A stretch of 41,389 nt of DNA, taken from the NCBI GenBank assembly GCA_030627235.1, contig DAOUSL010000011.1, positions 1 through 41,389 on the forward strand. The letters run 5' to 3'. Below the pieces are notes generated by a model, which worked only from the letters and a program-made list of their open reading frames with translations, was not told the DNA's origin and made no database searches. Of the stretch, positions 31,735 to 34,372 are shown in pieces; positions within the stretch are counted from its first letter, which is position 1; every line of letters begins with the position of its first letter. The position numbers and the translations under genes were made by a program. This stretch comes from Thioploca sp. (GTDB lineage Bacteria; Pseudomonadota; Gammaproteobacteria; Beggiatoales; Beggiatoaceae).

Positions 31735-31950
31735 TCAAATGCCCATAACCATATCATCTTCTGGAGCATACCAAGTATAAGTATGTTTGCTGTCTTGTAA
31801 TTTTCCATCATTAGTTTTTACTTCCCAAATCAATCCGGTATTATTATCTTTTACAGCTACCCATTGAGTTGCTGATTCTAGTAAAACTTGTCCTTTATCG
31901 TCTAATTTTTTGAAACGATTTACTCTTTGATAACGTTGGTAAATAGCCTT
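31735..31950 (-). pseudogene. Fragment of an Lcl C-terminal (DUF1566)-type protein
   Basis: An open frame without start codon ends at TGA 31735 and reads RYQRVNRFKKLDDKGQVLLE, then SATQWVAVKDNNTGLIWEVK and TNDGKLQDSKHTYTWYAPED. NTGLIWEVKT.DG..D...TYTW is the start of the Lcl C-terminal (DUF1566) domain, a C-type-lectin-like fold common in large surface proteins. Only about 65 residues are left and the frame overlaps the end of the MotA/TolQ gene, so a deletion joined the two. Confidence 0.7.
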
Positions 31951-32327
31951 AATTCAGATAAACTATTGAGTGATATTTTATTAAGTTCTTCTAATTGTTG
32001 CTTAATTTCTAGCAAAATAATGTTAGTTTTAACTTCTGGTTTGGATTGTAATATGGATAAAAATATTGATACCACCATGCCTAAAATAGAAGTTAAAAAA
32101 GCTAACTTTAGTCCTTCCAATAATTGAGGCACACTTGCACCAATATTTTGGGTATTAAAATTCCACAATCCCCATACAATTCCTACAAAAGTTCCTAAAA
32201 CTCCAATACTTACAATAACATGTTTATAATTAATATGTTGGCCACTTTTAAAAGTTTTATGGTCTTTGTAGGCCAAAAAATACATGATTATCGCAACTAT
32301 AATGGTTATTATTACTGATTGAGTCAT
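31920..32327 (-). CDS. MotA/TolQ/ExbB-type proton channel, probably truncated
   Basis: The 135 residues have a first membrane helix (5-20), a basic loop, and two further helices with the conserved channel sequence SIGVLGTFVGIVWGLWNFNT and QLLEGLKLAFLTSILGMVVS. These correspond to the pore helices of MotA/TolQ-type stator subunits, which run on proton flow with an OmpA/MotB-type partner. Its ATG overlaps the OmpA-tail stop as ATGA, so the pair was an operon. Relatives I recall are longer; the C-terminus (SLNSLSELRLFTNVIKE) runs into the DUF1566 fragment, so loss of its end is likely. ZorA of Zorya defence is a distant relative, but nothing else supports a Zorya system here. Confidence 0.7.
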   Translation of the reverse strand: MTQSVIITIIVAIIMYFLAYKDHKTFKSGQHINYKHVIVSIGVLGTFVGIVWGLWNFNTQNIGASVPQLLEGLKLAFLTSILGMVVSIFLSILQSKPEVKTNIILLEIKQQLEELNKISLNSLSELRLFTNVIKE

Positions 32328-32513
32328 AATTTTAAACGGGATTGTTTTAGTATTTGATAGAGTTTTTCTTCTGCTTTTGTAATAACTTTGAATTCAACTC
32401 GCCGTGATTTAGTAGCATCTTCTTGTTGTTTAGTCAAAATTGGTTTTGCAAATGATAAACCATTAGCTCTAAATATTTTTCTAAGCCATTTTTGTTGGGA
32501 AATTGGAAGTCCA
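32324..32513 (-). pseudogene. C-terminal tail of an OmpA/MotB-family protein
   Basis: A frame without start reads [20 protein letters not shown], then [20 protein letters not shown] and FKVITKAEEKLYQILKQSRL before TGA at 32324, which overlaps the channel gene ATG. SRRVEFKV is the C-terminal motif of OmpA-like peptidoglycan-binding domains and the preceding [10 protein letters not shown] matches their last helix. About 60 residues remain of a protein that should have several hundred. Its 5' end is joined to the Avd head. Confidence 0.75.
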
Positions 32514-32682
32514 ATTTTTCTTTACTATATTTAGCGTTAATTAATCCTTCCAGTAAATCATACAAACCTGTTATAATTCTATCTCCTAAAATAAACTTAT
32601 GATCTCGTGGTAAGCGATTTAAAATAGGCACATAATATTTAATTAAATCATAAGTTTTTTGGATTATAGGTAATTCATTCAT
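32434..32682 (-). pseudogene. avd: N-terminal half of a DGR accessory protein Avd
   Basis: The frame starts [20 protein letters not shown], then [20 protein letters not shown] and [17 protein letters not shown]. This is close to the start of bacterial Avd, the four-helix-bundle accessory protein of diversity-generating retroelements that binds the reverse transcriptase; full proteins have about 115-125 residues. After about residue 57 the match ends: the DNA from about 32513 on is the OmpA tail read in a different frame, so the listed 82-residue product has an unrelated C-terminus. A deletion or recombination cut both genes. The related S23 four-helix family is the other possible label. Confidence 0.75.
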
Positions 32683-32692
32683 TATAAAATAT

Positions 32693-32722
32693 AGGTTGGG
32701 TTAGACCCAGCCGTAACTCGAC
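32693..32722. repeat. Dispersed palindromic repeat, copy 2 (GGGT...CTCGAC type)
   Basis: Same family as 17686-17715: both start AGG, contain GGGT early and end CGACATTT. This copy is more decayed, so its stem is weaker. It lies in the 58-bp gap between the Avd fragment and the formylglycine-generating-enzyme-like gene. Confidence 0.55.
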
Positions 32723-32740
32723 ATTTCCATCTTAAAAAAC

Positions 32741-34123
32741 ATGACAATAAAATTAATTATCTTAGCAATAGTATTTGTATTAAGTGGTGGTGCTGCCTTC
32801 TCGGAGTATTTTAGAGGTCATAAAAAACTATCTTTTTTGGCAACAGTTATAGCGATTATTGCTACTTTTTATCTGTTTGAAGATATTTGGGAAGATATTG
32901 AAGAAAAAATTTCAAAAACTAATGAGTCAACAGTTACACAATCCTCGGTACCAAACCCACCTGTAATAACTGAAGTTACAATTCCAGATTTACTAACTCA
33001 ATCAATTGTAAAGCCTGAAATTAAACCATCAAGTTTAGCAGATAATTTAATAGAAAATCCAAATTTCACAGCTTATTTTCAACCCAAAAAAGGTCAGTTT
33101 GAAACTACTTCTGCTTTTCAAACACGATGGCATAAGTTATTGCAGCAGTTTAACAATCAAGTGCAACAACGGAATTTAGCCTATCAAGTTGGAACTTTAA
33201 AATTGAAAAATTATGACGCTGATACCCAAAAATTTACCGTAAATTTAAACTGGCAAGCTAATTGGTTGAACCAGTTTGAAACATTACAGAATAAAGGTAT
33301 AGTAACAATTACAGTTCAAAAGGCCAAACAACTTTACAATGCTGGTAATAAAAAACCATTATTTATAATTGCTAGTTTACATGATAATCAAGTTGAAATT
33401 CAAGGTTTGATAGTAGAAAATGGTCAAACTTATCCAATTAATTTAGTAAAACTGCCAAAAATGGTGAAAATTCCGGCTGGTAAGTTTCAAATGGGAGATA
33501 TTCAAGGTGGTGGTGATTCTGATGAAAAACCAGTGCATTGGGTAACTATAAAACAACCTTTTTTCATGAGCAAGTACGAAATAACTTTTGCTGAATATGA
33601 TGCTTTTGCTGAAGCTACTAGTAAAGAAAAACCAGATGATAAAGGTTGGGGACGTGCTAATCGGCCAGTAATTAACGTTTCATGGGACGATGCCGTAGCT
33701 TATACAACATGGTTAAGCCAACAAACTGGTGACCAGTATAGATTACCTTCAGAAGCCGAATGGGAATATGCAGCTCGGGCTGGCACGAAAACTAAATATT
33801 GGTGGGGTAATAATATTGGGAAAAATAAGGCTAATTGTAGTGATTGTGGTGATAAATTTGAATATACATCTCCAGTAGGTTCTTTCCAACCTAATAAATT
33901 TGGTTTATATGATACTGTTGGCAATGTTTGGGAATGGTGTGCTGATTATTACCAAGACAGTTATAAAAATGCCCCAACTGATGGTAGTTCTTGGGAAAAA
34001 GTTAGTGAATACAGAGTGTTGCGTGGTGGTTCATGGTACAATGATCCTATTTATGTTCGGTCTGCTAATCGTAATAGGGACAATAATAGGAGCAGCAATA
34101 TCGGTTTTCGAGTTGTTCGTTAG
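32741..34123 (+). CDS. Membrane protein with FGE/SUMF1 domain; likely DGR target
   Basis: The 460 residues begin with two membrane helices (about 3-22 and 31-47), then a linker (60-240). The rest (about 243-460) is a formylglycine-generating-enzyme/SUMF1 domain, a C-type-lectin-like fold: MVKIPAGKFQMGD, PFFMSKYEITFAEYDAFA, RPVINVSWDDAVAYTTWL, YRLPSEAEWEYAARAG, NKFGLYDTVGNVWEWCADYY and RVLRGGSWYN...IGFRVVR. Real FGE enzymes need a pair of Cys near the end; none is present, so it is likely a binding domain, not an enzyme. The final 36 residues have the form of a diversity-generating retroelement variable region (see separate entry). The Avd fragment lies 58 bp upstream on the other strand. Confidence 0.9.
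   Translation: MTIKLIILAIVFVLSGGAAFSEYFRGHKKLSFLATVIAIIATFYLFEDIWEDIEEKISKTNESTVTQSSVPNPPVITEVTIPDLLTQSIVKPEIKPSSLADNLIENPNFTAYFQPKKGQFETTSAFQTRWHKLLQQFNNQVQQRNLAYQVGTLKLKNYDADTQKFTVNLNWQANWLNQFETLQNKGIVTITVQKAKQLYNAGNKKPLFIIASLHDNQVEIQGLIVENGQTYPINLVKLPKMVKIPAGKFQMGDIQGGGDSDEKPVHWVTIKQPFFMSKYEITFAEYDAFAEATSKEKPDDKGWGRANRPVINVSWDDAVAYTTWLSQQTGDQYRLPSEAEWEYAARAGTKTKYWWGNNIGKNKANCSDCGDKFEYTSPVGSFQPNKFGLYDTVGNVWEWCADYYQDSYKNAPTDGSSWEKVSEYRVLRGGSWYNDPIYVRSANRNRDNNRSSNIGFRVVR
34021..34120 (+). other. Candidate DGR variable region (VR)
   Basis: The 3' end of the FGE-like gene encodes GGSWYNDPIYVRSANRNRDN followed by NRSSNIGFRVVR. The segment is rich in Asn, Ser, Asp, Tyr and Arg codons of the form that adenine mutagenesis of AAC/AAT codons gives (AAT, AGC, GAC, TAC, TAT, GAT), and ends in GGTTTTCG, the conserved end of many FGE-type variable regions. 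I found no matching template repeat and no reverse transcriptase in this window. Confidence 0.55.
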
Positions 34124-34372
34124 TTGAGCGGACTTATTTTCTTTTTAGATTTTTACCCTTTTTCCCTTTATACTTTTACACTTTATTCTTTTTAATGTTA
34201 GAATCAGGATTAAAGTTTAAGTAATGATGCGTCCTATACGCATATTTATGGAATCATAATTTTGAATTTAATATTATGTTCAGGAATATATAACATTTAT
34301 ATCAAATTAAAATTTGAACCACTATTCAATTATTTCCAATCACTGGGAACAAGACTGTATACAGGTTAAAAC

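Follow-up and report, generated by a model that had tools for sequence, protein, structure and literature searches.

Can the end of a gene be diversified by a retroelement that lies elsewhere in the genome? The locus considered here raises this question: a gene for an FGE-fold protein ends in what resembles the variable region (VR) of a diversity-generating retroelement (DGR), a fragment of the DGR accessory gene avd lies beside it, and the surrounding DNA holds neither a reverse transcriptase (RT) nor a template repeat (TR). Throughout, the window denotes the whole stretch of Thioploca sp. DNA that was analysed (41,389 nucleotides; contig DAOUSL010000011.1). The initial annotation had pointed to the VR-like end of this gene, and the gene, its position and the quoted residues are all as it described them. 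The features at the locus are:

32506..32682, minus strand: avd relic, comprising 59 codons from the start of avd, with 93% identity to the intact gene on contig C315 (below); the open reading frame continues to 32434 with unrelated sequence
32741..34123, plus strand: DGR target gene of the FGE fold, 460 residues
residues about 3-60 of its protein: two predicted N-terminal membrane helices
residues 61-237: linker or unknown domain, poorly modelled
residues 238-460: FGE-sulfatase, or FGE/C-type-lectin, domain (E 1e-63)

A short MotA/TolQ/ExbB-like open reading frame (31920-32327, minus strand) adjoins the avd relic, a PGM/PMM-family gene follows the target, and unique DNA lies on both sides of the locus. 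The closest solved structures to the target protein are PvdO and FGE, and Treponema TvpA is also matched (E 1e-14 by sequence, 2e-11 by fold). Confidence in the structure model is moderate, with a mean pLDDT of 62 and values of 75-92 in parts of the FGE domain. The cysteine pair of active FGE is missing, the bacterial LCHDSYC being aligned to YNDPIY of the query; to judge from the alignment, binding is therefore a likelier role than catalysis, and we infer that the product is a membrane-anchored binding or sensor protein.

The RT and TR that the window was rightly said to lack both sit on another contig of the same assembly (4.58 Mb, 471 contigs, 98.9% complete, 0.08% contamination). The initial annotation had proposed searching the genome for a near-copy of 90-120 bp that differs at A positions alone, and for a DGR-type RT. 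Both searches succeeded, and on the same contig, C315, which within 3159 bp (3.2 kb) holds an intact avd, an intact RT and a TR of 116 bp:

C315 1227->1: FGE paralogue, 92% identical to the window gene, running off the contig
C315 1297-1632, plus strand: intact avd
C315 1644-2687, plus strand: intact DGR-type RT
C315 2984->2869, minus strand: TR, 116 bp
right end of C315: copy of the 3' end of the VR, 33 bp identical

The RT carries the motifs IGNLTSQ and YVDD, matches PHROG 1423 (E 1e-120) and has as its best solved relative the 8ub7 series, the BPP-1 DGR RT, which scores 186 bits where group II RTs reach 84. Avd scores 136 bits against NF033474 (cut-off 80) and 82 bits against bAvd. The TR is followed by a structured spacer RNA, and since this spacer is conserved in the sense of the TR across 20 loci, with compensatory change at 17 of 28 predicted pairs, the template RNA looks functional even though it is flipped relative to the RT. 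An Rfam search returned no DGR family, just chance matches, and the genome's four other RTs (C291, C309, C352, C313) have no adenine-biased repeat pair in the surrounding sequence that was read. Note that C315 is short, physically unplaced and unresolved at its ends, so that the cassette is remote in the sense of lying 7.2 kb or more from the locus, past the nearer window end.

What lies to the right of C315? Its neighbour is likely C168, by virtue of 97 identical bp. Beyond these 97 bp, however, the last bases of C315 (L026:3155-3159) depart from C168 (L040:98-102) at VR positions, which points to a further, third target or to a polymorphic VR within the sequenced population. We also considered a circular 3.2-kb DGR element, given that C315 has an FGE gene without VR on one side and a VR end on the other. 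In Candidatus Parabeggiatoa HSG14 the order is the same and the targets on the two sides of the cassette are different, so that two targets around one cassette is the simpler reading of the C315 ends.

Aligning the TR (C315:2984-2869, minus strand) to the window gene shows where the VR begins and ends, and where it has changed:

34014..34129, plus strand: VR, 116 bp, extending 6 bp beyond the stop codon
34037, 34043, 34050, 34052, 34079, 34092, 34095: VR/TR mismatches, all at TR adenines
34130..34137, plus strand: IMH-like element GGACTTAT, exact complement of AUAAGUCC in the spacer RNA of C315, with TTACTTAT at this place in the TR
34138..34204, plus strand: pyrimidine-rich flank, common to the C315 right end and C168, with 2 differences in 68-75 bp

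The VR thus occupies the 3' end of a C-type-lectin/FGE target, where it had been placed originally, and is slightly longer than the 34021-34120 first assigned to it. It matches the TR at 109 of 116 bases (94%), and all seven mismatches coincide with one of the 34 adenines in the TR, leaving 82 of 82 non-A positions identical with RT and TR absent from the window. Each of the seven alters an AAY codon (N to Y, D, I, Y, D, S and S). The second target, a DUF4062-FGE gene on C168, differs from the TR at 15 positions, again all adenines (15/15). Hypergeometric P values are 1.2e-4 for the window alone and 5e-10 for C168, and the substitution spectrum at TR adenines comprises 13 A>T, 7 A>G and 2 A>C changes. 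Comparing the two targets directly, we find 17 VR differences, all at TR adenines, against 2 in the 68 bases that directly follow the VR. Adenine mutagenesis thus acted after the flank was last shared, on at least one of the two copies.

By far the best explanation of these observations, and one in which we have high confidence, is that the 3' end of the window gene is the VR of a remote target of a DGR cassette. The RT of C315, together with Avd, would copy the RNA of the C315 TR, placing random bases opposite template adenines during cDNA synthesis; the cDNA would then be substituted for the 116-bp VR with which the window gene ends, altering up to 13 AAY codons of the FGE/C-type-lectin domain. 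These 13 codons theoretically allow about 7e16 proteins, and stops are impossible. The protein scaffold is under purifying selection, with dN 0.041 and dS 0.251 between the window gene and its C315 copy (dN/dS about 0.16).

How did the target come to stand apart from its cassette? The avd fragment had been reported 58 bp from the FGE start, and there it is: an open reading frame at 32434-32682 (minus strand) whose first 59 residues are 93% identical to C315 Avd, placed divergently as in the C315 cassette. Over window positions 32507-33961 the two contigs share 90% identity, and the divergent order of avd and target is retained. Shorter avd relics stand beside paralogous targets on C414 (18 residues) and in a genome of the same genus (G004:C295, 26 residues). 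Given this identity and order, an avd cut at 59 codons and the shorter relics elsewhere, targets have multiplied through copying of the cassette's target end, with avd decaying later. The window locus accordingly derives from a duplicated unit of avd 5' part, target, VR and flank, in which avd could decay because Avd was supplied in trans. It shows how new DGR targets arise, in a fragmented, sulfur-bacterium-like genome where one DGR cassette would serve two or more dispersed genes of sensor-like type.

Could the same pattern arise without a DGR that acts on the window? Natural FGE domains end in ..GFR.., and the genome contains ordinary paralogues (C26, C226, C302), so one might suspect an ordinary FGE C-terminus. 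The existence of a TR with adenine-only differences refutes this, and while GGACT mostly follows the VR in DGR-type FGE genes of this genome and genus, the element is missing from the three ordinary paralogues; the chance that no DGR is involved is negligible. A more serious scenario is that of a frozen relic: imagine that the VR was duplicated out of the cassette at an earlier time and that rewriting has since ended. The cassette is indeed half broken at the window locus, with an avd relic and no RT or TR, and other FGE copies of the genome (C414, C93, C150, C333) end in VR-like sequence that has lost its match to the TR at non-A sites. The window VR differs from them in retaining all 82 non-A positions as well as GGACTTAT, despite a gene body that has diverged by about 8% from C315, which makes a frozen relic unlikely. 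Of the two possibilities originally raised, a remote cassette or a dead one, the remote cassette fits better, because RT, Avd, TR and spacer are intact and the VRs differ at TR adenines alone where the adjoining DNA is nearly identical. The C315 cassette presumably acts on the window locus at present.

Among the copies with mismatched ends, those on C150 (L042, C150:839-956) and C333 (L028, C333:3013-3119) define a second VR class, their FGE genes ending in GTGCTGCGTGGTGGTTCGTGG...ACTCGTGCCGCT followed by GCGGACTT. A TR for this class was not found in the assembly; a second DGR of the genome is lost or unassembled. In the same genus, genomes G001, G002 and G004 (L096-L103) carry several FGE genes with VR-like variable ends, most of them with GGACT, and no DGR RT related to that of C315 was found in these three genomes.

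Two further readings concern the VR state in the window rather than the existence of a target. Similarity between targets extends about 75 bp beyond the VR into non-coding DNA, the flank being as similar as the non-A positions of the VR, and duplication or gene conversion has therefore added to the identity. One might go further and attribute the VR state itself to gene conversion or duplication of a cassette-adjacent target instead of direct retrohoming at the window. With 17 VR differences from C168 accumulated since the flank was shared, all of them at TR adenines, we regard this as a minority possibility, to be kept in mind. The other reading is an assembly chimera in which the window VR belongs to the C315 locus: the FGE paralogues of C315 and the window are identical over 105 bp before the VR and at 105 of 107 bp after it, and since the former stretch stands just before the C315 contig end, the assembler could have exchanged VR states between them. 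The window continues on both sides into unique DNA, so that a VR-bearing target exists whichever VR state it has, and we consider a chimera very improbable.

How are target and template told apart? The bases after the VR suggest an answer. The VR reads GAGC-GGACTTAT where the TR reads GAGC-TTACTTAT, in the manner of IMH and IMH*: the VR/TR match ends with GGACT(CTT) in the VR and an altered version in the TR, and the spacer contains AAGAGUCC. At the two primer-proximal positions, 39 and 40 of 40 TR/VR pairs of the clade, respectively, have a VR base complementary to the spacer; at the second position the TR is complementary in 2 of 40. Where the spacer changes, the VR changes with it (spacer CA and VR TG in L125; spacer UC and VR GA in L130 and L122). 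In Bordetella phage BIP-1, of the BPP-1 type, spacer positions 49-56 (GGUGGUCA) are fully complementary to the VR (TGACCACC) and the TR (TGCCCATC) is mismatched; A56 is the primer nucleotide. A pyrimidine-rich tract (e.g. AGCCCTTTGCCCTTTTGCCCT) follows nearly every VR of the clade (L105-L143) and is absent after the TR.

A blind 8-mer search for spacer complementarity proved too noisy, whereas a test that took the TR:spacer helix as its only anchor and made no use of the VR worked. Across 22 non-redundant loci with strong anchors, many of them related, the VR base pairs with the spacer in 18 and the TR base in 2, compared with 26% for shuffled spacers. Because of that relatedness, compensatory cases across lineages (spacer A and VR T in Ideonella-type loci; spacer T and VR A in L094) carry more weight than the count of 18/22. 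BalMu-1, Microcystis and Magia-type phages do not follow the rule. We tentatively suggest, as a possibility somewhat short of an even bet, that what makes an IMH is its ability to pair with the primer part of the template RNA, where the TR is mismatched. cDNA is primed by an internal spacer adenine (PMC12875486), and the same source cites Naorem et al. for a proposed Okazaki-like intermediate. Post-VR bases would pair with spacer bases adjacent to the priming site, so that the spacer-RNA/cDNA hybrid pairs unbroken across the end of the VR and not across that of the TR. A hybrid that fits its target but not its own template would explain why transfer runs one way, from TR to VR. If true, the rule makes the distinction between IMH and IMH* directly testable and permits a motif search for remote targets even in genomes where the cassette is unassembled.

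The nearest named relatives of the RT come from large sulfur bacteria and filamentous cyanobacteria. They belong to HSG14 (74%), Thiomargarita, the Guaymas gammaproteobacterium B20_G6 and a large number of the cyanobacteria; RTs related at 44-75% identity mostly lie within cassettes with A-biased TR/VR pairs. In most related loci with a detected TR, it shares the strand of the RT and follows it at a distance of about 30 bp. C315, HSG14 and B20_G6, whose RTs form one group (support 91/94), have TR and spacer flipped as a unit to face the RT. The HSG14 cassette is flanked by two FGE targets in the layout of C315, with 16 of 18 and 12 of 15 mismatches at TR adenines; read from their open reading frames, these targets appear to be fused to kinase-like and caspase-like sequence. 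In B20_G6 (L139) the same cassette is decaying, with a frameshifted RT, an internal deletion in the TR and a target with the window gene's two-helix N-terminus, cut short. Phormidesmis priestleyi Ana (L120) has inverted its TR independently, onto the far (5') side of the RT gene, and an Ideonella dechloratans plasmid (L154) carries two RT genes in tandem, with an annotated avd before each, in a stretch of about 4 kb.

How does this system compare with those described before? The window target shares the FGE/C-type-lectin fold of Treponema denticola TvpA (PDB 2y3c), at 25% identity in the fold alignment and in another host with another cassette. A hairpin or cruciform after the VR is conserved in phage DGRs (PMC3240598); no stable BPP-1-like hairpin follows the window VR (z -0.2), this being an accessory feature of phage DGRs that does not define the family. 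Remote targets are already known: Thiohalocapsa PB-PSB1 has DGRs with such targets (Dore et al. 2024, PMC10907252), whereas the genome studied here has one complete cassette, on an unplaced contig, with an inverted TR-spacer. Cyanobacterial DGRs also have remote variable proteins (Vallota-Eastman et al. 2020, PMC7517822) and share with the present system dispersed CLec targets, VRs at the 3' end and RTs that are 60-71% identical; our host is not a cyanobacterium, and the TR orientation in cyanobacteria is mostly canonical. Inverted DGRs, too, have been known since 2012, as group 4 of Schillinger et al. (PMC3521204) in Shewanella, Vibrio and Photobacterium and as G5 of Yan et al. 2019 (PMC6642488), and C315 resembles them in having the RT on one strand and TR, VR and target on the other. 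Yet C315, HSG14 and B20_G6 form a clade separate from the inverted DGRs of Schillinger et al., one in which TR and spacer were flipped as a unit. That the template unit is inverted in a second lineage too shows that the RT mRNA and the template RNA do not have to share a transcript.
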